From an uncultured Opitutia bacterium (GTDB taxonomy: Bacteria; Verrucomicrobiota; Verrucomicrobiia; Opitutales; UBA953), in contig CAITUF010000001.1 of NCBI GenBank assembly GCA_903895475.1, positions 1 to 32,398 of the forward strand: a stretch of 32,398 nt of DNA, given 5' to 3'. A program made the position numbers and the translations under genes. The notes under the pieces are model-generated. The model was not told the DNA's origin. It saw only the letters and a list, made by a program, of their open reading frames with translations, and ran no database searches. Every line of letters begins with the position of its first letter. Positions within the stretch are counted from its first letter, which is position 1. This document shows positions 3,214 through 29,471 of this stretch, in pieces.

Positions 3214-3612
3214 ATGCAGACCCTTGGTGAACGACTTCAAGAAGCGCGTCAGCGCTTGGGCGTGACTTTGCGCGAGGCCGCGGAATTCACAAAAATCCGG
3301 ACCGACTACCTCCAGGCGATGGAGGCTAACCAGTTCGAATCCATTCCCTTGGCGGAAGTCTACAAGCGCGGCTTCGTGAAGGTCTACGCCCGCTACCTCC
3401 GGCTCGACGACGAGAAAGCGGGTTCTGATTTTAACACCCATCACTCCGTGCGCGCCGCGCGCCGACCGCTCGACGCTGCTGGCCAGGAAGAAGAAGAAGT
3501 CCCCTTTGAGCCGGTCGCAGGCGGGAGCCTTTCCGTCAACCGCGACACCATCCTCTGGATTGTCATTGGGGTGGCGTTGACGGCCTTGCTTGCTTGGGTG
3601 TTTTTTTCCTGA
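3214..3612 (+). CDS. RodZ-like N-terminal helix-turn-helix plus single TM protein
   Basis: MQTLGERLQEARQRLGVTLREAAEFTKIRTDYLQAMEANQFESIP is an HTH_25-type RodZ/YfgA N-terminus; C-terminal TM 'TILWIVIGVALTALLAWVFFS'. Stops immediately after a T7 run. Confidence 0.88.
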   Translation: MQTLGERLQEARQRLGVTLREAAEFTKIRTDYLQAMEANQFESIPLAEVYKRGFVKVYARYLRLDDEKAGSDFNTHHSVRAARRPLDAAGQEEEEVPFEPVAGGSLSVNRDTILWIVIGVALTALLAWVFFS

Positions 3613-4001
3613 GCTCGTCTTCCGGGACGAGCCAACCCGCCCAGCCTAAGAAAGCCACGGCGCCAGTCGTCTTGGTCGGACGACCGCATCTCGTTGGAAT
3701 CACGGCCTTGCAAAGTGGCACGAGCTGCCTCGTCCGCGAAACCAATTCCGGCGAAATCCGCTACAACCAACTCCTCGGCGTCCGGGGCAAGGAAATCTTC
3801 ATTACGGTTAAAGGGGCCTTCTCGGTGACTTCCAATGCGATTGAGAACCTCACGGTCACCATTGACGGAGTCCCTTATCAGACGCCTGAACTCTTCGGCC
3901 GGCAGATGGCGTCCTTCCCTGACCCGGAAACCGTCCCGCCGGTAGTGCCGGCACCGCCAGCGAAAAGTGCCCCCGCCAAGGCGCCAGTGCGCTCGCGTTA
4001 A
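3594..4001 (+). CDS. RodZ C-terminal (DUF4115)-like ORF, possibly the frameshifted continuation of 3214..3612
   Basis: Overlaps the previous ORF in the -1 frame, has only a TTG start inside it with no SD, and lacks its own signal or HTH. The body (VGITALQSGTSCLVRETNSGEI...NAIENLTVTIDGVPYQTP) looks like the extracytoplasmic RodZ domain. Confidence 0.6.
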   Translation: MGVFFLSSSSGTSQPAQPKKATAPVVLVGRPHLVGITALQSGTSCLVRETNSGEIRYNQLLGVRGKEIFITVKGAFSVTSNAIENLTVTIDGVPYQTPELFGRQMASFPDPETVPPVVPAPPAKSAPAKAPVRSR

Positions 4002-4045
4002 GGAACAACGTTTGAGCCGCTGTTGACCGAGGCGGCAGAGTGGGT

Positions 4046-4678
4046 ATGGTTGCCCTCGCCTTGCCACCTCGTCCTGACCATCGCGTGCTCGTCTTGAACC
4101 GCCTCTGGCAGCCGGTGAACATCGTCGGCACTTTACGCGCCATGAGTTTACTCTTTCGCGGCCGTGCCTCCGTCGTGCATTCGGATGAATCCGGCCACCG
4201 GATCTTCGCGGCCGCTGAATGGGTTACTTATTCCTTGGCGGTACCCCCGCCCGCGGCGGAGGCCGTCCGTTCGCCGTGTATCGTATTACGCATGCCGCGC
4301 GTTTTACTCTTGGGGGCCTACGATCGCGTCCCCCGCCGCGAGATTCGCTTTAGTCGCCGCAATGTCTACCTCCGCGACGCCCATACTTGTCAGTATTGTG
4401 GCCGCGTCTTCCGGGAGGAAGAACTGAACCTCGATCACGTCGTCCCGCGCGATGTCGGCGGCAAGACCAACTGGGAGAACATCGTGACGGCCTGTGTGCG
4501 CTGCAATTCTCGGAAAGCGAACCGTCTCCCCGAGCAGGCGGGCATGAGCCTCCGCCGTCCGCCCGTAAAACCGAAGTGGCGGCTCGTGGTCGCCTCTTCC
4601 TTGGCGCCGGAAGAACAGGTGGCCTGGAAGGAGTTCCTCGAGGTCGCTCCGGCTGGTCAATTGCCTTGGCGGAACTGA
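4046..4678 (+). CDS. HNH endonuclease family protein
   Basis: VLVLNRLWQPVNIVG N-terminus; CQYCGRVF...LNLDHVVPRDVGGKTNWENIVTACVRCNSRK is the HNH motif with CxxC zinc ligands. ATG at 4046. Confidence 0.93.
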   Translation: MVALALPPRPDHRVLVLNRLWQPVNIVGTLRAMSLLFRGRASVVHSDESGHRIFAAAEWVTYSLAVPPPAAEAVRSPCIVLRMPRVLLLGAYDRVPRREIRFSRRNVYLRDAHTCQYCGRVFREEELNLDHVVPRDVGGKTNWENIVTACVRCNSRKANRLPEQAGMSLRRPPVKPKWRLVVASSLAPEEQVAWKEFLEVAPAGQLPWRN

Positions 4679-14170: not shown

Positions 14171-17100
14171 ATGCGGATTTCTAAGTCTCTGTTGGTGGCC
14201 GCCGCTATGCTTGCTTCCGCAGGTATCGCCCAGGCCCAGCAAAACGTGACCCAGGCCACTTGGCTCGGCTCTGCCGGCGACGGCGGCACGGGTATTTGGG
14301 ACAAGTGGAATACCGCCCCCACGGCGCACAACTACTGGCAGGCCACCAACCTGACGCCCCAGGTGGCGGTGTCCGGCGTCCGCCTGACGAATGCGGCTAA
14401 CCTGCTCTTTACTTACACGGGTACGGCGCTCACCGCGGGTGCCACGAACGACATCCTCATCGATTCGAACATCATTTCCAGCCAGTCCCAGACGCTCCGC
14501 TTCCAGTCGTCAGGCTATCGCCTTTTGCCGGGTGCCTTCGCCTCGGGCATCCAGCCGACCACCACCAACTTCCAAGACATCGATTTGGCCCGCACGGTGG
14601 TCAATGCCCCGTACACCGCCGCCCCCAATGGTACCCTGCAGATCGGGAACGTCACCTTCACCGTGGCGGGGATTCCTGGGGCGATTTCCGCTCAGCCGTT
14701 CCTGACGCTGCGTAACCCGACGAGTTTCGGCGGTGCGATTACCGCCGCGAACGCGGACACCACGATTAACCTGGAGAGCTTCGTTGCTTCCACCATCTCT
14801 GGCAACTTCAAGGGCAACGGGAATATCGTCAAGACGGGCGGCGCCGTCCTGCAGTATCAGGGCTATACGGGCGACATGTTCCGCTACGGCACCGAAGCGC
14901 GCCCTTATTCATACAACACGTTCTTAGGGGTTAATATTTTGTACGATGCGCACGCCGACCAGTACGGCCTCCGCCCGCTCGATTTAGCGCCGACGCTGGT
15001 CGTTAATGACGGTGCTAATGGCGCTCGTCTCGCTGGCCTCCAGGGACAAATGCGTGTCGATGGCGGCCTGCTCATGGTGAGCGGCCACCTCAACATGTGG
15101 CACGACTTCGGCGAAACCGTCGACGGCAACATCCTCACGGTGGGCACGCAGAACGAAATTCCGCTGCTAACCGCGAATATCGCCGCGGGCGCCAATACTA
15201 CTAAGCTGCGCCACAGCCTCGCTAAGCGGATGACGGGGGTCTCCTCCGTCGTCCTCAATGGCTCAGCGGAAATCAGTTTCACGAACACCCCGGTCAACGT
15301 TGGAAGCGGCGCCACCGCGGTGCGCCTCAACTTCCTCCACAACCTTAAGGCGGGTGACAACAACGATCAGTTTCAGACGACGGTCACGACGGGTCCTGAC
15401 GACAACTACCGTCTCGGTATTCACATCGACCAAGGCTTCGATGGCTCCGTCGGCATTCTCGCCGGTTCGGGCAAGGTCATCAAGACCGGTGCTGGCACAT
15501 TGACGGTCCTCAGTGACTCCCGCATGAACGGCGACTTCATCGCGGGCGGCGGCCGCACGGTCTTGGCGAGCGCCACGGGGCTGACCTTTGCCAATAGCAG
15601 TTCCTTCAATATCGCCGGGACCGATGCGCGTCTCGGGGCGGACATCAGTTACCAGGAACTTAATGACCCGAACCCTAATGACCCGCACGTCGACTACCGC
15701 CCCGCCCTTTTCCCAGACATTGGCACCGTGACCGTCACCACCAATGGTAATAGCCAGTTCACGGGAACGGTAGTCACTGGTGCCGAGGTCGTCCTAGTCG
15801 GCGACCAAACGGTTCGTAATTTCCAAGCCGATTTTGCGCTCAAGTCCAAAGGCACGACCAATATTGGCACGGCGACCTTGGGGGAAGTCTTCACAGCGGC
15901 GGATGCCGTCAGCACGGCGGCCAACGTTAATAATAAGGGCGAGCTCGTCATCTCGGGTACGGGCAAAGGCTCTAAGCTTTTCCTCAACGGCAATAGCCTG
16001 ACTATTAATCAGGACGCCACGGGTCGCGATGGCCTTTACTTCGGCGATATCTATGGTTCGGACCTCACCACGGGTGTTTCGGGTGGCCGCATCATCAAGA
16101 CGGGGGGCGGCACGCTCGCCCTGATGGGTACCAATAGTTTTTACGATTACACCGAAATCCTGGGCGGCACCTTCATTGCCAGCGTTCAGGGCCTCGGCCA
16201 GAAGGACGTCTTTATCGGCAATGGGGGCACCTTCGCCATCCTGCAGACCAACGCGGGCGTGCTGCTTGCGAGCCTTTCCGGCTCCGCTGGCTCCACGCTC
16301 AAGCTACTCGCTTCAGCGTTTATCGACAACGGCAGCGGCGCGAAGATTCAGGTTAATAGTGGGAATGATGTGGGCCAAGTGAATATCATCAATGTACAGG
16401 CCAATTTCTTCGGTAACATCGTCGTTAACGACGGCGTTAATCTCTCGTTCTCGGGCGGCGCGAATAACACGTTTGCCAACGCGAGCTCCATCAAGCTCGA
16501 CTCCGGCAACACCCGTGAAACCGTACTCAAGTTCGGCGACACGAACCAACTCATCCGTAACCTCAGCGGCGATCTGCTCTCCCGCGTTGAACTTGGCCGC
16601 GGTGACATCACGCTCGAGCAGAACAGTTCCACCGCTAATTTCCAGGGCTCCATCACTGGCGTCGGCAGTTTAATCAAGCAGGGCTCCGCCAGCTTCACGC
16701 TCGCTGGCACGACGCCCGGTGGCGCCATCAAGAATTCCTACTATGGTGCGACTATCGTTCGCCCAGGGGGTGCGCTCATCGCTGGCACCGCTAACGCGAC
16801 GCCCAACACCTCCGCCCTCATCCTCGTCGGTGCCGGTACGTTTAACACCGGTGGCCTTAACCAGACTTTCGGTGGCCTGTTCGGTTCGGCTGCCTCGACC
16901 CTGAATATCGGTGCCGCGACCGTCACCGTGGGCTACACGCCGGCGCGGGCAGCTTTGATGACCTCCGAGCTCGCGGGGTCCAACCCCTTGCTCGCCGATT
17001 ACCTCGGCACGACCGACCAGCTGAACCCTATCCTTAACCTGGCGAGCTTTACGGCGACGGGCGGAGCGATTGCCGCTTCCACTATCACCACGGCTTCGAC

Positions 17101-20100
17101 CACTGGCTTGGCCGTCGGCCAGGTGCTCACGGGCACCGGTATCCAACCCGGCACCCTCATCACGGGTATCGGCGCCGGCACCGTTAACATCAGCAAACCG
17201 CTGACCGCCGCTGCGACGGGTGTGATTGCGGCGACCGCCACCGTTACCTTTACGCCGACCTCGGGTGTCTCGGGTGCCTCGCAATTAACCGCCACGGCCT
17301 CGGCCGGCCTCGGCGTTGGGCAGATCATCGTTGGTACGGGGATTGCCGATGGTTCCTACATCACGGCCATCGTTGCGAACACCAGCTTCACGATTAACGC
17401 CGGCGCCGCCGGCACGACGACGGTCAAGACCATCTCTTCAGCTGGCCTGGCCGTGGGCCAGACCATCGCGGGCACCGGCCTGGCGCTGAACAGCCAGATT
17501 GCCTCCATCACCCCGAATACGTCGTTCTTCGCCACGGGGGGTGCGGTCGGTACGCGTACCATCACCACGACCGCGACGACCGGACTCTTCGTCGGACAGA
17601 CCTTAACCGGCACAGGTATCCCCGCGGGCGCTATCATCACGGCGGTCACCCCGACTTCCATTACGATCTCGGCTTCGCTCACCGCTAAGGCCGCTGGCAA
17701 CGTCACCGTCGGCGCCTTGATTGGCCTCACCAACGCTTTGACCGCGACGGCTTCGGGTACGGCGACCGTCAGCGCGCTCATCTCCCTGAATAACCCGCTC
17801 ACGGCGACCCTCGCCGCTGTGCCGGTTAACGCGGGTACTGTCCGCACCATCGATGTGTCGTCGCTCGGCCTCACCGCCAGCGAACTCAACGCGCTTTACG
17901 CGGGTTCGACCCCGATGTCGGCCCTGACTCGGCGCTACCTCTCGACGGTGGCCGTGGGGACGAATCTCGGCAGCTACGTGGCTCCTACCACGGACATTTC
18001 CTTCACCAACTCCTTGTCCTTCGACGGCCAACTGGTCGGCACGGGCACCTTCGTGAAGTCGGGCTCCGAAACGCTTTTCCTGCGCGGTTTCAGCACCGGC
18101 TTCACTGGCCAAGTTCAGGTCAACGGTGGCACGCTCGACATTTCCTTTGTCGGAGCCGTCAACAACCTCAACAACGCTTCCTCCATCACCGTAAACGCCG
18201 GCGGCAACCTCGCTGTCACGGTGGATGACGTCTATGTGGCGGGCCCGAGCGCGGTAAAGCGTACGCTGACCACGCCGGTCCTCGGCACGGGTAATTTCGT
18301 CAAGAACGGCGTCGGTTACCTCGTCCTCAACCCGACCCTCGCGGCCGGCCAGGTCTCTTATTCTGGCACGACCTTTGTGAATAATGGTTGGCTCGAAATG
18401 AACGCGCTGTCCACGAACGGCGCCGCGGTCATCAACTCCTTCAACGGCACCGCAGCCCACCTGGTGCTCAACGCCACCAACGATGTCACTTACTCTGGGC
18501 TTGTTTCGGGTACGGGTGAACTCGTCATCCAAGCGGCGGCCGGCAAGACGCTGACTGCAGGCGGTTCGCTGACCCACACCGGCGGCACCAATGTCCTCAC
18601 GGGCACACTCCTTGCCCAAAATGGTTGGGCAGGTGCGACCACGGGAAATATCACTGTCGCCGCGGGCGCGAAGGCACGCTTGAACGTGACCACCAACCTC
18701 GCCGCCACGGGCGTCTTCATCGGTGCCGGCACCATTATCAAGGAAGGTTCGTCTTCTCTTACCCTCGGCACCGCAACGACGGCCTTTAGCGGGACTTACC
18801 AGTCTAACGCTGGTACGACCGTCTTGGCTTCGGCCAATCTCTTCGGTGGTGCCAACCCGACGGATTTAATCGCCGCCATTGACCTCCGCGGCACGTCCGT
18901 GCTCGACGTCACTGCCAACCAGACCTTCCGTAACCTCACCGGTGAGGCCACCTCACAGATTTCCTACGGCGTCAACGGCACCGTCATCTCCTTGCCGATC
19001 GACACTGGCGCCACCAACAGCTTCGCGGGTCGCTTCACGCGCGGAGCGGGTGTCACCGATGCCTCGATTATTAAGACTGGTCTCGGCACTTTGGACCTCT
19101 CCCCGACGGGCGGCGACAATCAGCTGACCTTGATTAGCGTGACGGCAGGTCGCTTGGTCGGGACCGACGCCGGTTATCGCGGAGCGACCATAGAGGTTGG
19201 TACGGGTGCAGAAGTAGCCTTCAACGCCCCGACCGCTGGCGCCGTCGTCACCTTTAACAACAATATTTCTGGTATTGGTGCTGCGGCTGGCACGGGCACG
19301 GTCGTTAAGGTCGGCCTGGGCGAAGCCATCCTCGGCTCCGTCAACCTCACGGCGAACACCCCCGACTTCAAGGTTGAGCAGGGCATCCTCACCCTCACCG
19401 ATAGCCGGGCTGGTAGCGGCATTCCGATGCTGACCGCCAACGTTTCCGCCGGTGCCACCTTCCGCGTCAAGATCGCCAACGCGCGCTCCCTTGGTTCCGA
19501 AATCACCGGCACGGGCAAGCTCGACCTGCAGTCCGACGCGACCATCCCAGGTGTCAAGTTAGTGGCGGTTAGCTCGCAGCCGACGGTCAGCACGACCAAC
19601 ATCGGGAGCGACGTTCGTCTCGACGTCTCCGCTATTTCCGCGGTCACCGGCATCACCGCCGACACGGGGTCCTTCCTAGATATCGGTGCCATCGGCGCCG
19701 GCCGCACGCTGACTCTGACCCAAGGAACCGACGGCGTCTTCAATGGCATCATCGAAGGCACCGCGAACTTCACCGTGAAGGGCGCCGGCCTCTTCCGTTA
19801 CGCCAATAGCCTCCAAGCGACGACCGTCGGAACGGTCACCGTCGACGGCGGCTTCCTTGGCGTGAACGTCAACAACACCAAGGCAATCACCTTGGCCACC
19901 CCGGCGACGGGTACCTCTAAGCTTGGCGTCTATGTCGCCACCGGCAATTCCATCTACACGGGCATCCTTTCCGGCGGCACCGGTGCGCAGGTGGTCAAGC
20001 TCGGCTTGGGCACCCTCGACCTGACGAGCGGCGTGTCGTCTTCTCTGAAGGATGACCTGTTCGCGTCTTACGATGTTCGCGAAGGCACCCTCGCCACAAC

Positions 20101-22081
20101 CCTAGTAGCCGATCCGCTGAACCCGACCGGCCCTGGACTTATCCTCCCTAATTCCCTAAACGTCGGTCGCGCGGTGACGCTCTCCGGTGGCACTTTGGCC
20201 CTAACGGTCGGTGCGACGGGTGGCACCTTACTCTCCGGCTCTGGCTCTGCCAGCACCGGTAACCTAATCATCACCACTGCCAACGTCGGGGACACCTCGC
20301 TCCTGAATGTCCTCGGCAATGTCTCCGGTAACGTGAGCGTCGACGGCGGCACGGTCCTCAAGTTAGGTTCTTCAGGCGCCTCGTTGCTGTCCATCACCGG
20401 TGATCTCGCCGTCACCGCCGGTTCCAAGTTGACCGGCTCGGCGAACGTCGGCGGTAACTTTACCGTCGCTGCAAACTCGACCCTCGCCCCGGGTTACTCG
20501 CCTGGCACCATTAACGTCACGGGTAATTTCACGCTCGCTGGCACGGCGAATATGGAAGTCTCGGGCGATGTCGTCGGCGGTCTCTATAACGACTCCGTCA
20601 CCTTCTCCGGCACGGCCAACCTCTCGGCAGGCAACGTCCTCGTGCAGCGCTGGAATAACGGCCCCAGCACGGTCGCCCCGGCCTTTGGCCAGCGCTTCGT
20701 TCTCTTCCAGGGCACCGCGACCCCTTCGGTGGGAGCTAACCTCGTCGCCACTTACTTCACGGGTGCCACGCCAGCTGGTATTACGACCGATGACGCCTTG
20801 GGCCGTTACCTCGTCGTCGCTCCAGCCGCCGTCGATGCGGGTGCGGTCGCTTCGGGTTACGATGGCCTGATTCACAATGCGGACGGCTTGGCCCACAAGC
20901 CGAATGAGTACGCGGTCTACGCCGTGCGCGCCGAGAGCGGCTACGCTGTGGCGGGTGTCGATGCTGGCATCATTTCTTACGTCCAAGCCGCGACGAAGGT
21001 CGTCGCGGGCACAGTCTATATTCCTGGCGCCGTTAATAACCCTGGCTCCGTGGCGACCCTTGATCCTCTGGCGGCTCGCCTAATGACCATGAGCGACGGG
21101 CAGTTGACGCCGGCGCTGCTCAGTTTGCAGCCCGCCGCCTTGGCCGCCATCCCGGCCGCCATGGCCCTCGGCCAGCGCGCTGAAAGCGATGCCTTGCTGC
21201 GTCGTCTCGAGATGCGTCGCTACGACCGCGCTGGTTATAGCGTCTATTACAATGAAGGCTTCGCGCTGACGACTTCCTCGAGTTTCAAGGGTGGTTCCGG
21301 TTCGGATGCCACGCCTTTTGACTCCACCGTTACCGGCGCCATGGGTGGTATGATTAAGGACCTTAATCCTTGGTCCGTCGCAGGTTTCTCCGCCGGTTAC
21401 ACTAAGAGCAAGGGCGACCTCTCGGCCGGCGGTGCTTCCGCGGGCTCGGTCAGCGGTAATGCCTATCGCCTGACGGGTTTCTTCTCGTCGATGCTCGGCG
21501 AACGCAAGGACTCGCTGTTCGTAGATGCCGGTATTTCCGTCGGTACCTCGACTAATAAGTCTTCGCGTACGACCTTCCTCGGTACCGAGACCGCGAGCCC
21601 GAAGGCCACTGGCTACGGAGCCTTCGCCCGTTTGGGCGCAGGCTACGCCACCAAGGCAGGCGTCAGCTTCTCGCCCTACGTCGGCGTCGACTTCGCTAAG
21701 GTCAGCGGTAGCGGCTTCGATGAAGCCGGCGACGCTTCCGCGCTTAAGGTCAGTTCCTATTCCTACACTTCCGCCCGCGCCACCGTGGGCTCCGGTATGA
21801 CCTGGCTGACCGTGGGCGATGGCGAAACCTTGAAGTTCTCCATCGACTTCGAAGCCTTCGCCGAAATCGGCGGCGGCAAGACCACGGACATCTCGGCCCG
21901 CCTCGGCAACATCGACTTCACGTCGGAGGCCAACGTCTCTGCCGGTAGCGGTTTCCGCATCGCCCCATCGTTCACTTATGGTCCGAACCCGGACTCGGCG
22001 TATTACCTAACGCTCTCGCTCGAAAAAGCGGGCGCGACCCAGACCACCGGCTTCGAACTCGGCTACCGCCGCCGCTTCTAA
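14171..22081 (+). CDS. Giant autotransporter with beta-strand-repeat passenger and C-terminal beta-barrel (copy 1)
   Basis: 2636 aa: signal peptide MRISKSLLVAAAMLASAGIAQAQ; many 'GxGxxxKxGxGTLxLxGxxxxxGxxxVxGGTL' repeats; YSPGTINVTGNFTLAGT; C-terminal autotransporter barrel ending GFELGYRRRF. Confidence 0.95.
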   Translation: MRISKSLLVAAAMLASAGIAQAQQNVTQATWLGSAGDGGTGIWDKWNTAPTAHNYWQATNLTPQVAVSGVRLTNAANLLFTYTGTALTAGATNDILIDSNIISSQSQTLRFQSSGYRLLPGAFASGIQPTTTNFQDIDLARTVVNAPYTAAPNGTLQIGNVTFTVAGIPGAISAQPFLTLRNPTSFGGAITAANADTTINLESFVASTISGNFKGNGNIVKTGGAVLQYQGYTGDMFRYGTEARPYSYNTFLGVNILYDAHADQYGLRPLDLAPTLVVNDGANGARLAGLQGQMRVDGGLLMVSGHLNMWHDFGETVDGNILTVGTQNEIPLLTANIAAGANTTKLRHSLAKRMTGVSSVVLNGSAEISFTNTPVNVGSGATAVRLNFLHNLKAGDNNDQFQTTVTTGPDDNYRLGIHIDQGFDGSVGILAGSGKVIKTGAGTLTVLSDSRMNGDFIAGGGRTVLASATGLTFANSSSFNIAGTDARLGADISYQELNDPNPNDPHVDYRPALFPDIGTVTVTTNGNSQFTGTVVTGAEVVLVGDQTVRNFQADFALKSKGTTNIGTATLGEVFTAADAVSTAANVNNKGELVISGTGKGSKLFLNGNSLTINQDATGRDGLYFGDIYGSDLTTGVSGGRIIKTGGGTLALMGTNSFYDYTEILGGTFIASVQGLGQKDVFIGNGGTFAILQTNAGVLLASLSGSAGSTLKLLASAFIDNGSGAKIQVNSGNDVGQVNIINVQANFFGNIVVNDGVNLSFSGGANNTFANASSIKLDSGNTRETVLKFGDTNQLIRNLSGDLLSRVELGRGDITLEQNSSTANFQGSITGVGSLIKQGSASFTLAGTTPGGAIKNSYYGATIVRPGGALIAGTANATPNTSALILVGAGTFNTGGLNQTFGGLFGSAASTLNIGAATVTVGYTPARAALMTSELAGSNPLLADYLGTTDQLNPILNLASFTATGGAIAASTITTASTTGLAVGQVLTGTGIQPGTLITGIGAGTVNISKPLTAAATGVIAATATVTFTPTSGVSGASQLTATASAGLGVGQIIVGTGIADGSYITAIVANTSFTINAGAAGTTTVKTISSAGLAVGQTIAGTGLALNSQIASITPNTSFFATGGAVGTRTITTTATTGLFVGQTLTGTGIPAGAIITAVTPTSITISASLTAKAAGNVTVGALIGLTNALTATASGTATVSALISLNNPLTATLAAVPVNAGTVRTIDVSSLGLTASELNALYAGSTPMSALTRRYLSTVAVGTNLGSYVAPTTDISFTNSLSFDGQLVGTGTFVKSGSETLFLRGFSTGFTGQVQVNGGTLDISFVGAVNNLNNASSITVNAGGNLAVTVDDVYVAGPSAVKRTLTTPVLGTGNFVKNGVGYLVLNPTLAAGQVSYSGTTFVNNGWLEMNALSTNGAAVINSFNGTAAHLVLNATNDVTYSGLVSGTGELVIQAAAGKTLTAGGSLTHTGGTNVLTGTLLAQNGWAGATTGNITVAAGAKARLNVTTNLAATGVFIGAGTIIKEGSSSLTLGTATTAFSGTYQSNAGTTVLASANLFGGANPTDLIAAIDLRGTSVLDVTANQTFRNLTGEATSQISYGVNGTVISLPIDTGATNSFAGRFTRGAGVTDASIIKTGLGTLDLSPTGGDNQLTLISVTAGRLVGTDAGYRGATIEVGTGAEVAFNAPTAGAVVTFNNNISGIGAAAGTGTVVKVGLGEAILGSVNLTANTPDFKVEQGILTLTDSRAGSGIPMLTANVSAGATFRVKIANARSLGSEITGTGKLDLQSDATIPGVKLVAVSSQPTVSTTNIGSDVRLDVSAISAVTGITADTGSFLDIGAIGAGRTLTLTQGTDGVFNGIIEGTANFTVKGAGLFRYANSLQATTVGTVTVDGGFLGVNVNNTKAITLATPATGTSKLGVYVATGNSIYTGILSGGTGAQVVKLGLGTLDLTSGVSSSLKDDLFASYDVREGTLATTLVADPLNPTGPGLILPNSLNVGRAVTLSGGTLALTVGATGGTLLSGSGSASTGNLIITTANVGDTSLLNVLGNVSGNVSVDGGTVLKLGSSGASLLSITGDLAVTAGSKLTGSANVGGNFTVAANSTLAPGYSPGTINVTGNFTLAGTANMEVSGDVVGGLYNDSVTFSGTANLSAGNVLVQRWNNGPSTVAPAFGQRFVLFQGTATPSVGANLVATYFTGATPAGITTDDALGRYLVVAPAAVDAGAVASGYDGLIHNADGLAHKPNEYAVYAVRAESGYAVAGVDAGIISYVQAATKVVAGTVYIPGAVNNPGSVATLDPLAARLMTMSDGQLTPALLSLQPAALAAIPAAMALGQRAESDALLRRLEMRRYDRAGYSVYYNEGFALTTSSSFKGGSGSDATPFDSTVTGAMGGMIKDLNPWSVAGFSAGYTKSKGDLSAGGASAGSVSGNAYRLTGFFSSMLGERKDSLFVDAGISVGTSTNKSSRTTFLGTETASPKATGYGAFARLGAGYATKAGVSFSPYVGVDFAKVSGSGFDEAGDASALKVSSYSYTSARATVGSGMTWLTVGDGETLKFSIDFEAFAEIGGGKTTDISARLGNIDFTSEANVSAGSGFRIAPSFTYGPNPDSAYYLTLSLEKAGATQTTGFELGYRRRF
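17041..17820 (+). repeat. Block of degenerate 'GLxVGQxxxGTGIxxGxxIT' modules in autotransporter 1
   Basis: TTGLAVGQVLTGTGIQPGTLITGI; SAGLGVGQIIVGTGIADGSYITAI; SAGLAVGQTIAGTGLALNSQIASI; TTGLFVGQTLTGTGIPAGAIITAV. Confidence 0.85.
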
Positions 22082-22115: not shown

Positions 22116-25100
22116 ATGAAACTCTCTCGTAAGTTCCTCGTTCTCGCCTCGGCCGCCCTCGTGGCTGGCCTGCCTTCCGCCCAAGCGGACGTCACCGTTA
22201 ACTATTCCTTGGGTGCGCCGGCTGTCCTGACGGGCACGGCGCTCACGGCGACGAACCTCGGCGCCCCTGGCCTACTCCCGCAGCCGACGGCCATCCAGGT
22301 CGTAGGGGAAAGAACCGTCAGCTCACTCAACATCGGGGCTTTGACGACCTTGACGATTAACCAGCTCGTGGACGCGACGACGCTCACCCAGTTCCTCAGC
22401 GCTCCGAATTCGGCCCTCATTGATGTCGGTAATTTCGCGACTTTACCTGTCTTAGTGAAGACCGGCGGCGCCACGTTGCAGTACGACGCCAATCGGCTCC
22501 TCCACTCCGATAATAAAGTGGTTAACCCTTACTTCTTAAATGCGACCTATTTTAGAACCGCACAAACGGGGCCTATGCCGAACGACCTGCGTCAGCTCGG
22601 CGCCTTCTCGGGCTTGGTCATCGTCAACCAAGGCACCTTGCAGGTGTCTGGCTATCTGAACCAGTGGGCCAGTTACGGTGTGGCGAATCCGGCCGGCTTC
22701 AACGCCCGCATGGAAGGCGCTGGCGCCGTCATCCTCCAAGGCTCGGCCTCGCTGAGCTTCCAAGGCACCGCTTACAATGTCGTCGGAGTGGGTCCTTCTT
22801 TAGGTGATAATGAGATTAACGGGCCCTACATCCCAGAGCGCTTCCGCCTGAATTACGTCCACAACCTCTACTCCGGCACGCAGGCTAACTTCCTCGCGGG
22901 CTTGGATGGCACGGATGTAAACACGGTCCTGGATGTGGGTAAGGATGCCGACTACATCGCTAATATCCACATCGATGACGGCGTCGTTGGCTCGGTCGGA
23001 CGTATCGATGGTGCCGGCCGCGTCTACAAGACCGGCTCGGGTTCTTTCACGATCCTCAACACCAGCCGCATCACGGGCGACGTGTTCGTGGGCGGCGGCG
23101 ACCTCGTCCTTTCCGACCCGAACAACCTGGCCCTCCGCCTCGCCAACTCGGTCAATCTTATTGGTTCCGACGGCAACCAGACGGCTTTGGCCCGCGCCGA
23201 CGCCGTAACGAGCGGCATCGTGACCCAGTGGCGCCCTGGTTACCTGCCGGGTCGCAGTGCCCCGCAGCTCAGCATCACCACGAATCAGTCGATTCGTAAC
23301 TTCCAGTCCCTCTGGGGTGAGAACGCGACCAACATGTGGGTCGCTGGCACGGGTGCCGGTACCGTCGTCGAAATCGCCTCGGGCACTTCGTTGACGCTTC
23401 TGCAGGACGCCAATCGCGATGGATACTTCACTGGCAGTATCAATGGCGGCCTCGGTCGATTGATCAAGGAGGGCGCAGGCTCGTTGGCTTTGATGGGCCA
23501 AAGCTCTTCGGTGGGCGAAATCGCCATCAATGGCGGCAAGATTATTTCCAATGTGCAAAGCCTCGGCTACGGGCGCGTCGTCATCGGCGCGGGTGGTACC
23601 CTTAGTATCGTCCAGAACAACGCCGGCACGCTCCGCGCCCAAATCAACGGCGCCGCTGGGTCAACCCTCACTGTTACCCCGCAGGACCTCATCGTTAGCT
23701 CGGTTTCGTCGGGCGCCAACGCTGGCAGCAGCCCGCCGAACGTCGGCAACGGCCAGTTGGGCGTGATCGACATCTACAACCAGCAACAGGACTTCTACGG
23801 ACAGGTCATCGTCAAGGACGGCATCACGCTGGCCTTCTCGTTTGGTAAGGACGACACCTTCATCCGCGCCTCAAATATCGTACTCAACTCCGGCACGAGC
23901 GGCCGCGAGACCACCATTCGTTTCAATGACACGACCCAGACGGTCAACAATCTCTCGGGCGACGCCAACACGCGCATCGAACTCGGTCGTGGTTCCATCA
24001 CGATTAACCAGACGGCCAATACGGCTTACGCGGGTAAGGTCACGGGCGCTGGCAACCTCATCAAGGCTGGCAACAGCAGCATGACGCTTTCGGGTCTCAG
24101 CAGCTACTACGGTGCCACCGTCGTCAAGGCCGGCTCGCTGGCTTCCACCGCCGCTGATGGCATCATTAACAGCGCGGGACTTGTCTTGCTGAGCGGTACG
24201 ACCTTCACCGCGTCCGCCAACCAGACGGTTGGGGCGCTTTTCGGCCAGACCGGATCCGTCGTCTCGGTGCAGACCGGCGCCACGTTGACCGTCGGCAAGA
24301 CGACGGCTCAAGTGACCCAGCTGAATAATGCTTTGGCCAGTTTCACGGGTGTCTCGCCCGATGCGAACCCAGCTTACTTCCTCCAGACAGACCTCGGGGC
24401 GGCTGCAGTCTCCGGCATGTCTCAGGCGAACACGATTGGCTTCCTGCGCACGGCGTTGGGCGAGCCCACGAGTTTCACGCCGGTCTCCGGCTCTGGCAGC
24501 ACCCTGATTGTTAAGAACACCTTCGGCCTCACGGTCGGCCAAGCCGTCACGGGTACGGGCATCGGTTCCGCCACCACGATTTCAGCGATCTTGGCCGCGC
24601 CTTCCGCCCAAGCCGCTCAGACGGCGACGGGCACAGTTATTCCTTTGGCGAACACCACCGGTTTCCTCGTGGGCATGCCGGTATCGGGCACGGGTATTCC
24701 TGCTGGTACCACGATCACCAGCATCGGCACGGGCTCGATCACGCTGAGTGCCTCGACCTCGGTCGCTGCCACGGGCATGATTAGCGGTACCGCCGCGGTC
24801 ACCTTGAGTAATGCACTATCGGTTGCCGCCGCGGGTGCTTATGCGCTGTCTCCGGTCACGACGGATGCGCAGGTCCTCGGGTTCCGCGGCGTTATCACCG
24901 GCAACGGTGGTCTCACTAAGGTGGGTAACCAGACTTTGTTCCTGCTGACGCCCAGCACCTACGCGGGTGCGACCAATGTCAACGGCGGCACCCTGCAGAT
25001 TGATCATAATACGTTGACGAATACGTCGGGCATCAATGTCGGCGTCGCGGGTAATCTCTCTGTCAACGTCACGAGTGGCAGCGCCACCTTCACCCGTTCG

Positions 25101-28100
25101 CTTAGCGGTCCTGGCTCCTTGACCAAGGTCGGCGCGGGTACGCTTGTCATCAACACGGCGTCCGGCTGGGTGAGTGGCGCCATCAATGTCCGTGCCGGTA
25201 GCTTGGAGTTTAATCCAGGCACCTTGGCGGCCATCACGGGTGGCATCTTGAACGTCGATCGCGGCGGCTCCTTCGTGATTAACACCCCGACCGACCTCAC
25301 TTGGGCTGGTAATCTGGTGGGTGCCGGCACGGTCACCAAAATCGGTGCAGGCACCTTGACGGTTGTTGGCGGTATCAATATGGCCGACGCGGCGGTTGGC
25401 TCGGGCTTGCTCGATATCCAGGTGGGCAAGGTCTACGGCTCGAATCTTCCATCCGTGTTCGGCCCGCCCGCTACTTTCGGTGTGGCCCAGCTCGCTGCTG
25501 GCACTACTTTTCGCGACACCGTTGCGAGTGCGACGGGATCGCAGACCACGGTCAGTTCCTTGATTAATGTCAGCAGCACGGTCGGCTTCACGGTCGGCCA
25601 GACGGTGAGCGGCACTGGTATCCAGGCCGGGTCAAAAATCACCTCCTTGACGGAAAACTCCATCACCCTCGATACCGTAACGACGGCGCTCGCCACGGGC
25701 ACGGTTAAGGTCGAAGAGTCCTTTGGTGCTTGGCTCTTCCAGGCTGGGACGCAGGCCGCCGCTGGCGCTACCTTTGGCGTTACTTCTACTGCCGGCCTCC
25801 AGGTCGGTATGCATGCCTTCGACAATAACGTGACTGGTTACGCCGGCCTCCTTGGCACGATCGTCTCCATCAACAACGTCGCTTCGACGGTGACCTTGAG
25901 TGCCCCGACCGCCGCCGCCCTGAACAGCACTTTGGCTTTCCAGCTCGGCGACGTCCGCGGTGCGGGTAAGTTTGAGAAAGCCGGCAATGGCACACTCACC
26001 TTGGACGTCCCCCTGTCGTTGACTGGCGCCGTCGAGATCCTCGGTGGTACCTTGGTCGTGAACACGGAATCGGCTTTCCATAATGCCTCCTCCATCACCC
26101 TCGGCGCTGGCGCAACGCTGGACGTTTCGGGCTTCGACCAGGACCTCGCCAATGTCACGAGCGATGCGGCTTCGACGCTCGTCGGTACGGGTTCGACTTT
26201 GACCTTAAAGGCCTCCGCGGGTGCCACCACTACCTATAGTGGGCTAATCACCGGCGCGCCGGACATCGTCTTCAATGAAATCCGTCCGTCCGGCAGCACG
26301 GCCGCTCTCGGAGCACTCAACCTGCTCCGTCCGTCCACCTCCGCCAACGTCATCAACTCCATCGACGTCCAGTCGGGTAGCCTGATTGGCACCATCGCTG
26401 GCTTCGGTGGCGCGTCGCTGAATGTCGCTGCGGGCGCCAAGATTGGCTTTAATAATAATGACCTCGCCGTAGCGGAAACTTTCACCGGTCCGGTGACGGG
26501 TGCAGGCACCATCCTGAAGACGGGTGTCGGCCAGATTACCTTGTCCAACGGCGGCGCCACGGCTTCGGCTTATGAAGTCTTGGGTGGTAAACTCACCGTG
26601 CTCGACACGCGTCCTAACGGTACTGCCAACGCCCCCATTGACTTAATCAATGCTACGATCGCGGCTGGGACGACGCTGGAAGTTCGTCTGAATGGTTTCC
26701 GCGAGCGCAATCTCGGCGCGCAGATTCAGGGCCTTAGCCTGACTTCACAGGGCACCTTGCAGATCACCAATACGACGAACGATAACTCCAACGTTTACCT
26801 CACGGCGGGCGCCTCCTTGGCCGCGGTCACGTTGGGTGATAAGGTCACCTTGCTCCAGAACGGACAGAGCTCCATCGCTGGGGTCAATGGCTCGTCGGGG
26901 TCTAATCTAAACTTCAACACCGGTGGTGCCGTCACCATCAATCAGGCCATTAATACGAGCTTCGTCGGCACGGTCGCCGGGGTGGCTTCGCAGTTAACCC
27001 TGGTCGGCCCTGGTCGCGCCGGCTTCACGAATTCCGCTCTTTCTACGCAACTCGGCGCCAGCATTACCTTGGCGGTCGGTTCGGGTGCGACGGCGGGACA
27101 CCTCGAGATTGATTCGCGCTTCAATAGCGCGACGGCCCTCACGCTCAACGCCGGTTCGCTCGCCGTTAATGTGGACCTTGCTTCCCCCGCAACCTTTAAC
27201 ACGGCGATCAGTGGTGCAGCTGGTGCTGTGAAGTTTATCAAGACGGGTGCCGGTACGCTCAACGCCAACCTCGGGGTCGTCGCGGACCCAATCTTCTCCG
27301 CTTACGAGATTGAGGCGGGCGAACTTTTAGTGACTCCAGTGGCAAACCAGATTCTCGGTGGCCGCAGCGTTTCGCTGATGGGTGGTAACCTTTCTATTCA
27401 GCAAGATGCCTCCGCGCCGATTTTGGGTACGTCAGGCTTCACCACCACCAGCGCTGGCATGCTGAACGTCCTAGGTGCAACGACTGGCCCCACGGGCATC
27501 TTGACCGTCACGGGTTCCTTCGCGGGCGGCCTTAGCCTGCAGTCGAGCGCCAACGTCGTCCTCGGTACCTCCGGTACGAATGTCATTGCTGTCACGGGCG
27601 CCGTCACCGTCGGCGCGGGTAGCACTTTGGGTGGTCAGGCCATCATCGGTACGACGCTCGCTAACGCGAACTTCGTCAACAACGGCACCGTCGCGCCGGG
27701 CTACTCGCCTGGTGTCGTCACGGTGAACGGCAACGTGACTAACACCGGTGCCTTCATCATGGAGCTCTCGGCCACGCTGGCTAACGGCACCTATAACGAC
27801 CAAGTACTCTTCACCGGCACGGCCAACCTCAATATCGGCGGCACTGGGTCAATCACCCTAAAGCAGTACGATGTGAACCCGCTCTCCCCGGCCACCCCGG
27901 CATTCGGTCAGCGCTTCGTCCTCTTCAAGGATACGCTCCTCCCAGATGCGTCCAGTTTCACTTCGTTGATCCCAGCCTCGCAGATCACCTCGCAGGGTAT
28001 CAGCCCCTTCCGCTACCTCCTTTCGATTCCAGGTACGCAGACCGTGGTTGGCGCCAATGGTGCGACGGGAGCGAGCACTTTGACGGTTCCTAGCGTGAGC

Positions 28101-29471
28101 GGCTTGGTGGTCGGCCAGGCGGTGTCGGGCACGAATATTCCTGCCAATAGTTCAATCAAAGCCATCAACACGGTGACCAACACGATCACCTTGAACACCG
28201 TCTTGGCTCAGCCAGTCGCCGGCAATATGTCGGTTAGCCTAGGCTCGGCTGGCGTTCCTGTTGTGAACGGTGAAATTGCCGCCTATGTGGTCCGCGCCCC
28301 TGCTGCCTACGACGCCTTCAAGGCTCCGGCCTCCTTGTTAGCCTCGATTAAGTCCATCACCCAAGTCGACTCGGCCTTGGTGAATAACGGTGCGGACACG
28401 GTGTTCAATACGGCCGATGACGTTTATAGTTCTACGCCGGCCTCCACTTATAATATCGTCGGCGGTGGCTTGGCGGTCTTGGGCGATACTGCCCTGCAGA
28501 CGGCCCTCGACAACCTCACTCCGTACGGTGCCGCGGGTACCGTCACGGCCGCAGGCACGCTCTTCCAGCAGAACATCAACAACGCCGCCCGTCGCCTCGA
28601 GCTCCGTCGCTTTGACCGCTCCAGCCTGACGATTCTCTCCAACGAGTGGTACGTCGACACCATCGGCGGCAAGGCCACCGTGGGCGCCTCTGGCGAGCTC
28701 CAGAATAAGGCGACGACCTACGGCATCACTGCTGGCTACACCACGCAGGTCGGCGTCGATGGCGTCGCTGGTTACGCCCTGACGGCTCAGCGCTTTTCGC
28801 TCTCGAGTGACACCTCCACCAGTGCTTCGGGCAATGGCTTCGCTGCCAATGCCTATGTCGGCACGGTCGCGATGCGTGGGCAACTCTCCCTCGATGCGGG
28901 CGTCTCCGTTTCGCACTTATCGTCAGAGGTTACCCGTGACTCCGTGATTGGGTCTGGCAACACGAACGCATCGTCTCCGAGCGCTTTGACCTACGGCGTC
29001 TGGGGTCGCCTCGGGACCGTCATCGCACTGAAGTCGGCCGATACCTTTATCACGCCTTTCATCGGCGTGCAGTATGCTTCGACCAAGTTATCGAGCATGG
29101 ACGAATCCGGCCAGGCCGACGCCATGGCGGTCACCTCTGGGTCGGTTTCGCAGTCCTCGGTGCGCGTGGGCACTGGCTTCCACCACGTGTGGGAAGAGGG
29201 TCGTGGCGATTGGCGCTACCGTCTGTCCATGGACGTGGGCTACGTGAAGCAGTTCTCGGGTGAGTTTGGGGACTTTACGTCCACGAACGCGACGGGCATC
29301 AACACGACTTACACCTCCAGTTTGCGTGTGAGCGCAGGCTCGGGTTTGTATGTTAACCCGTCCCTGAACTTCGGACCGGATGAGAATTCCACCTTCTCGA
29401 TTGGTTTGTCCTACGAGCAGGGTAACGGGAACTCGCTCGGCGTGAATGCGGGCTACCGTAAGCGCTTCTAA
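22116..29471 (+). CDS. Giant autotransporter with beta-strand-repeat passenger and C-terminal beta-barrel (copy 2, paralog of 14171..22081)
   Basis: 2451 aa: signal peptide MKLSRKFLVLASAALVAGLPSAQA; collinear with copy 1 (e.g. IHIDDGVVGSVGRIDGAGRVYKTGSGSFTIL vs IHIDQGFDGSVGILAGSGKVIKTGAGTLTVL); barrel ends VNAGYRKRF. Confidence 0.95.
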   Translation: MKLSRKFLVLASAALVAGLPSAQADVTVNYSLGAPAVLTGTALTATNLGAPGLLPQPTAIQVVGERTVSSLNIGALTTLTINQLVDATTLTQFLSAPNSALIDVGNFATLPVLVKTGGATLQYDANRLLHSDNKVVNPYFLNATYFRTAQTGPMPNDLRQLGAFSGLVIVNQGTLQVSGYLNQWASYGVANPAGFNARMEGAGAVILQGSASLSFQGTAYNVVGVGPSLGDNEINGPYIPERFRLNYVHNLYSGTQANFLAGLDGTDVNTVLDVGKDADYIANIHIDDGVVGSVGRIDGAGRVYKTGSGSFTILNTSRITGDVFVGGGDLVLSDPNNLALRLANSVNLIGSDGNQTALARADAVTSGIVTQWRPGYLPGRSAPQLSITTNQSIRNFQSLWGENATNMWVAGTGAGTVVEIASGTSLTLLQDANRDGYFTGSINGGLGRLIKEGAGSLALMGQSSSVGEIAINGGKIISNVQSLGYGRVVIGAGGTLSIVQNNAGTLRAQINGAAGSTLTVTPQDLIVSSVSSGANAGSSPPNVGNGQLGVIDIYNQQQDFYGQVIVKDGITLAFSFGKDDTFIRASNIVLNSGTSGRETTIRFNDTTQTVNNLSGDANTRIELGRGSITINQTANTAYAGKVTGAGNLIKAGNSSMTLSGLSSYYGATVVKAGSLASTAADGIINSAGLVLLSGTTFTASANQTVGALFGQTGSVVSVQTGATLTVGKTTAQVTQLNNALASFTGVSPDANPAYFLQTDLGAAAVSGMSQANTIGFLRTALGEPTSFTPVSGSGSTLIVKNTFGLTVGQAVTGTGIGSATTISAILAAPSAQAAQTATGTVIPLANTTGFLVGMPVSGTGIPAGTTITSIGTGSITLSASTSVAATGMISGTAAVTLSNALSVAAAGAYALSPVTTDAQVLGFRGVITGNGGLTKVGNQTLFLLTPSTYAGATNVNGGTLQIDHNTLTNTSGINVGVAGNLSVNVTSGSATFTRSLSGPGSLTKVGAGTLVINTASGWVSGAINVRAGSLEFNPGTLAAITGGILNVDRGGSFVINTPTDLTWAGNLVGAGTVTKIGAGTLTVVGGINMADAAVGSGLLDIQVGKVYGSNLPSVFGPPATFGVAQLAAGTTFRDTVASATGSQTTVSSLINVSSTVGFTVGQTVSGTGIQAGSKITSLTENSITLDTVTTALATGTVKVEESFGAWLFQAGTQAAAGATFGVTSTAGLQVGMHAFDNNVTGYAGLLGTIVSINNVASTVTLSAPTAAALNSTLAFQLGDVRGAGKFEKAGNGTLTLDVPLSLTGAVEILGGTLVVNTESAFHNASSITLGAGATLDVSGFDQDLANVTSDAASTLVGTGSTLTLKASAGATTTYSGLITGAPDIVFNEIRPSGSTAALGALNLLRPSTSANVINSIDVQSGSLIGTIAGFGGASLNVAAGAKIGFNNNDLAVAETFTGPVTGAGTILKTGVGQITLSNGGATASAYEVLGGKLTVLDTRPNGTANAPIDLINATIAAGTTLEVRLNGFRERNLGAQIQGLSLTSQGTLQITNTTNDNSNVYLTAGASLAAVTLGDKVTLLQNGQSSIAGVNGSSGSNLNFNTGGAVTINQAINTSFVGTVAGVASQLTLVGPGRAGFTNSALSTQLGASITLAVGSGATAGHLEIDSRFNSATALTLNAGSLAVNVDLASPATFNTAISGAAGAVKFIKTGAGTLNANLGVVADPIFSAYEIEAGELLVTPVANQILGGRSVSLMGGNLSIQQDASAPILGTSGFTTTSAGMLNVLGATTGPTGILTVTGSFAGGLSLQSSANVVLGTSGTNVIAVTGAVTVGAGSTLGGQAIIGTTLANANFVNNGTVAPGYSPGVVTVNGNVTNTGAFIMELSATLANGTYNDQVLFTGTANLNIGGTGSITLKQYDVNPLSPATPAFGQRFVLFKDTLLPDASSFTSLIPASQITSQGISPFRYLLSIPGTQTVVGANGATGASTLTVPSVSGLVVGQAVSGTNIPANSSIKAINTVTNTITLNTVLAQPVAGNMSVSLGSAGVPVVNGEIAAYVVRAPAAYDAFKAPASLLASIKSITQVDSALVNNGADTVFNTADDVYSSTPASTYNIVGGGLAVLGDTALQTALDNLTPYGAAGTVTAAGTLFQQNINNAARRLELRRFDRSSLTILSNEWYVDTIGGKATVGASGELQNKATTYGITAGYTTQVGVDGVAGYALTAQRFSLSSDTSTSASGNGFAANAYVGTVAMRGQLSLDAGVSVSHLSSEVTRDSVIGSGNTNASSPSALTYGVWGRLGTVIALKSADTFITPFIGVQYASTKLSSMDESGQADAMAVTSGSVSQSSVRVGTGFHHVWEEGRGDWRYRLSMDVGYVKQFSGEFGDFTSTNATGINTTYTSSLRVSAGSGLYVNPSLNFGPDENSTFSIGLSYEQGNGNSLGVNAGYRKRF
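24484..24840 (+). repeat. 'GLxVGQxxxGTGI' modules in autotransporter 2, first block
   Basis: FGLTVGQAVTGTGIGSATTISAI; TTGFLVGMPVSGTGIPAGTTITSIGTGSITLSAS. Confidence 0.8.
25538..25950 (+). repeat. 'GLxVGQxxxGTGI' modules in autotransporter 2, second block
   Basis: TVGFTVGQTVSGTGIQAGSKITSLTENSITLDTVTTALATGTV; divergent TAGLQVGMHAFDNNVTG unit. Confidence 0.75.
28040..28250 (+). repeat. 'GLxVGQxxxGTGI' module in autotransporter 2, between passenger and barrel
   Basis: VSGLVVGQAVSGTNIPANSSIKAINTVTNTITLNTVLAQPVAGNMSVSLG, located after the YSPG region and before the barrel. Confidence 0.75.

Follow-up and report, generated by a model that had tools for sequence, protein, structure and literature searches.

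Conserved slip site and stop-proximal hairpin point to programmed -1 ribosomal frameshifting in rodZ of an Opitutales genus

The window analyzed here is a 32,398-nucleotide stretch of contig CAITUF010000001.1 from an uncultured Opitutia bacterium, and all coordinates refer to it. Its source assembly comprises 2.25 Mb in 341 contigs, and its near relatives are Opitutae or Opitutia MAGs (e.g., UBA953, UBA957 and UBA7397), mostly from lake samples. Near the start of the window, two forward-strand reading frames meet at a run of T's (Table 1). The zero frame reads GTG (3598) TTT TTT TCC TGA (3610-3612) across seven T's, just as the original prediction had it. The second ORF, 3594-4001, is open in the -1 frame up to a TAA at 3999-4001, and its sole start is a TTG inside the HTH-TM gene. 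A -1 shift at T_TTT would create the junction A-W-V-F-F-F-L-S-S-S-S, residue for residue the one originally proposed, and would join the 3214-3612 ORF to 3609-3998 in a fusion of 262 aa in total. In this predicted product, the junction of the two frames is spanned by WVFFFLSSSSGTSQPAQPK. The hairpin at 3613-3632 forms the second half of the signal and was absent from the original prediction.

Table 1. Features of the rodZ junction, in window coordinates
Feature	Position	Strand	Basis
Zero-frame ORF, 132 aa, with RodZ helix-turn-helix and transmembrane segment (predicted short isoform)	3214..3612	+	HTH_25, E 7.9e-19
T7 run	3601..3607	+	T-run of 5-7 in all 38 orthologous junctions
T_TTT slip tetramer (putative)	3603-3606	+	T preceding in-frame TTT in 38/38 junctions
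6-nt spacer, TCC plus zero-frame stop TGA	3607..3612	+	NNC-stop kept in nearly all loci
Hairpin GCTCGTC-TTCCGG-GACGAGC, proposed frameshift stimulator	3613..3632	+	Synonymous-shuffle test, covariation, published criteria
-1 frame extension (TTC CTG AGC ... TAA), predicted linker and extracytoplasmic beta domain	3606..4001	+	RodZ C-terminus homology

An HNH endonuclease-like gene (4040-4678) adjoins rodZ throughout the genus; NCBIfam gave only sub-threshold matches to the HNH region of IscB / Cas9d. Ahead of this gene, 3' of rodZ at 4023-4050, a TTGACC element occurs in nearly all loci, including those that encode only the short form of RodZ, and in the window TATGGT follows 16 nt further on. 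The pair looks like a promoter of the HNH gene itself, retained where rodZ is without its C-terminal region. Further along the window are two consecutive giant ORFs (14171-22081, 2636 aa, and 22116-29471, 2451 aa) that resemble autotransporters: each has a signal-like start, a passenger region rich in repeats and an end that looks like a beta-barrel.

Judged by homology, the N-terminal part is a RodZ: besides its HTH_25 domain, it matches PDB chains of chlamydial RodZ CT009 (4GQM) and T. maritima RodZ (2WUS). The -1 ORF, by its substitution pattern, evolves as a protein, with 11 invariant columns in 37 sequences and codon-position differences like those of protein-coding sequence. Its domain is under looser constraint than the N-terminal part according to median dN/dS (0.42 vs 0.15, from partly saturated distances). 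Profile comparison of the -1 part with the C-terminal ends of RodZ proteins that sister lineages encode in a single ORF gave an hhalign probability of 97% (E 1.1e-10). The AlphaFold2 model of the -1 part is all-beta, with 8 strands and a core pLDDT of about 90; no PDB fold neighbors of the C-terminal model were found at E<=0.001. Pfam RodZ_C left the window's own C-terminus unmatched and was weak across the loci (best E 0.05, in 3/37). The label 'RodZ-C-like' originally given to the second ORF is thus upheld by profile comparison and not by a direct Pfam hit. The fused product itself is, on this homology, a RodZ with the predicted HTH-TM-extracytoplasmic layout, made up of HTH_25, a TM segment and a predicted beta domain homologous to sister-family C-termini.

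We examined whether the junction recurs in related genomes, nearly all of those carrying the signal being environmental assemblies. Of the 57 genomes searched, 53 had a match to the N-terminal part and 29 to the C-terminal part, all of them within the genus. The same plan was found in 38 distinct loci of one Opitutales genus, drawn from many lakes and separate assemblies: a T-run, NNC and a stop, with the -1 frame open for another 120-141 codons. The exceptions are one CGG in place of NNC and one locus with an extra codon. The run has six T's in 31 loci, seven in 4 and five in 3; the T_TTT site is present in 38/38, with the in-frame stop a few bases on, and this zero-frame stop varies in identity (TGA 16, TAA 14, TAG 8). 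The orthologous junctions bear out a conserved T-run and frame arrangement. The pattern TTTTTNNCTRRGCTCG occurs exactly once per genome in 35/55 genomes of the genus, 34 of these 35 matches lying at rodZ and the other on contig 5 of G087; its reversed control gave 0 matches in the genomes of the genus. The junction pattern is far beyond chance. A search of Rfam at the junction returned no match.

The sequence after the stop was then assessed for secondary structure. The hairpin starts directly 3' of the stop, 6 nt from the slip site, and lies 3' of the T-run at nearly fixed spacing. Folding energies averaged over the 38 loci place the 32 nt that begin immediately after the stop among the region's most stable windows: their mean is -14.5 kcal/mol, as against -15.0 kcal/mol for the window 3 nt earlier and about -4 to -10.5 kcal/mol per 32 nt away from the stop. 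Compared with synonymous shuffles that preserve the -1 protein, the hairpin had a mean z of -2.8 and reached p<0.05 in 33/38 loci; support was weak in a few (L019, p 0.40; L021, p 0.12). The fold of the whole 71-nt region had a z of only -0.87, and the signal is therefore that of a local hairpin. For the 20-nt hairpin (21 rows, 19 distinct), 100% of cells were standard-paired and 9 were altered on both sides; two pairs had two-sided changes (U-A to C-G), and the covariation score was reached by 0/500 shuffles. A bulged 10-bp stem variant of one subclade had no covariation support. Two loci, L094 and L096, have a quite different, longer stem of 10-12 bp (CCGGTTCGCC...) at the same place, and in L095 the stop comes one codon later and the hairpin has moved along with it. 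Published rules for bacterial -1 stimulators (PMC4066793) ask for a hairpin that begins 4-10 nt past the motif, is closed by G-C and has a stability of at least 7.6 kcal/mol; 37/38 loci contain one, although in a few of these 37 the best-scoring hairpin differs from the stem adjoining the stop.

We also assessed whether the HTH-TM part is found by itself. In this genus (g1) and its sister genus g25, 17 loci encode only this form; the C-terminal region is gone, and the HNH nuclease gene comes next, with a conserved motif 69-92 nt after the stop. As 17 relatives encode nothing else of the protein, the short product is probably functional. A short working form is plausible, given that E. coli can largely keep its rod shape without the periplasmic domain of RodZ (PMC6946637) and that the chlamydial protein has no such domain (PMC4047632). 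MreB is encoded in the window's own genome (470 bits) and in 69/79 family genomes, those with the frameshift signal and those with only the short form included.

Taken together, these observations make it very probable that rodZ undergoes a programmed -1 ribosomal frameshift yielding two RodZ isoforms; the occurrence and rate of slippage, and the working of both isoforms with MreB, we infer. Most ribosomes would halt at the TGA at 3610 and release the 132-aa membrane-anchored HTH-TM RodZ. A ribosome decoding TTT TTT would meet the hairpin with the second TTT in its A or P site, and some ribosomes, held there, would slip back one base on T_TTT as tRNA-Phe re-pairs UUU to UUU. These would read on in the -1 frame and add the linker and extracytoplasmic beta domain. 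Among slip tetramers in E. coli, U_UU.C and U_UU.U (U_UU.Y) rank just behind A_AA.G (PMC4066793). Of the three options originally offered (recoding into a short HTH-TM and a full-length form, an assembly homopolymer error, or a recent pseudogenizing indel), recoding is strongly favored.

It is unlikely, if still worth weighing, that the gene carries a tolerated indel, with slippage merely rescuing a broken frame and the short product a by-product that has no role of its own. Such tolerance would fit the relaxed constraint on the -1 domain and the complete absence of that domain from some lineages. However, none of the 38 loci has lost the stop, even though a one-base insertion would be enough to put the gene back into a single frame, the stimulator hairpin is maintained, and the short-only relatives retain both the HTH-TM form and MreB.

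The original prediction left open whether recoding is ribosomal or transcriptional, and it is the ribosomal half of that proposal that the evidence favors. If RNA polymerase added a T within the run, part of the mRNA would encode the fusion in one frame, and a T-run does stand at the junction in every locus. The runs are just 5-7 long, however, with T5 in three loci, short of the long homopolymer (about 8-9 or more) expected for transcriptional slippage; in many genomes, selection against slippage is visible from runs of 9 (PMC1088944). The hairpin, moreover, lies 3' of the run, at nearly fixed spacing, in the position of a ribosome stimulator. We regard transcriptional slippage as very improbable.

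Still less credible is the production of two separate proteins, with the second ORF started independently or by re-initiation after the stop, which it abuts. The orthologues share no start codon or Shine-Dalgarno sequence, and one locus has no ATG, GTG or TTG start between positions -90 and +180 relative to the stop. A standalone second ORF with its own conserved start was looked for among them and not found, in keeping with the original view that ORF 3594-4001 has no plausible start, and an independent start was rejected. The C-terminal part alone would also be without a membrane segment, and sister families encode one protein. Short T-runs together with the lack of a conserved start thus disfavor both transcriptional slippage and re-initiation. 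Finally, a homopolymer junction in a MAG invites suspicion, but the arrangement is shared by 38 distinct junctions in independent assemblies, which excludes both an assembly error and a recent pseudogene, two of the options raised originally.

Among the matches listed from elsewhere in the order, outside g1 and g25, RodZ lies in one frame, open for about 210-424 aa, save for one match interrupted by a stop. Single-ORF RodZ is most likely ancestral. In the trees, some short-only loci lie beside frameshift loci, and at least 2 changes are needed; a single clade of the short-only form was not rejected (AU p 0.09). One rodZ-like match from another family of the order (G182:C435:1454-1693) has an in-frame TAA inside. 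Loci L099 and L119 come from MAGs labeled Polynucleobacter meluiroseus and Akkermansia muciniphila; as they carry the rodZ of this Opitutales genus, those names are probably wrong.

Many known bacterial programmed -1 frameshifts sit in mobile elements, and to our knowledge few convincing, vertically conserved examples exist in ordinary bacterial genes. The predicted rodZ signal resembles that of IS elements (IS1/IS3 families) and dnaX, which likewise combine a slip motif, an early frame-0 stop and a hairpin 5-8 nt downstream, and which also use U_UU.[U,C] tetramers (PMC4066793). In IS elements, as predicted for this rodZ, the -1 shift adds a C-terminal extension. Unlike them, rodZ is a vertically inherited cytoskeletal gene and not mobile; its slip site is a tetramer, in contrast to the A_AAA_AAG heptamer, and by eye its junction has no obvious upstream Shine-Dalgarno-like element. 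The protein described here has HTH_25, one TM segment and a predicted beta-type C-terminal domain in common with RodZ from E. coli and sister Opitutales; those proteins are each encoded by one ORF, whereas here two frames are joined by a conserved slip signal. Chlamydial RodZ (CT009; sequence match 4GQM), from the same superphylum, is likewise short and has no periplasmic domain (PMC4047632). In that case no other product is made, whereas here the short form is predicted beside a full one and has short-only relatives in the genus. The mechanism is known; for rodZ, no earlier report of frameshifting was found in the searchable papers, within which the gene is a new case of it.

Gene finders will annotate genes of this kind as two fragments or as pseudogenes. 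If our reading is correct, one mRNA gives rise to RodZ both with the outer domain and without it, and there is a real possibility that the MreB machinery is controlled at a level not described before. This bears on the open question of the role of RodZ's largely dispensable outer domain (PMC6946637), for which full-only, mixed and short-only states occur naturally within the family and can be compared. More tentatively, the frameshift may tune the proportions of anchored RodZ that lack and that have the outer domain. Translation itself would then control the coupling of the MreB machinery to the periplasm or to division, and lineages that have no outer domain would have settled at one end of the switch.
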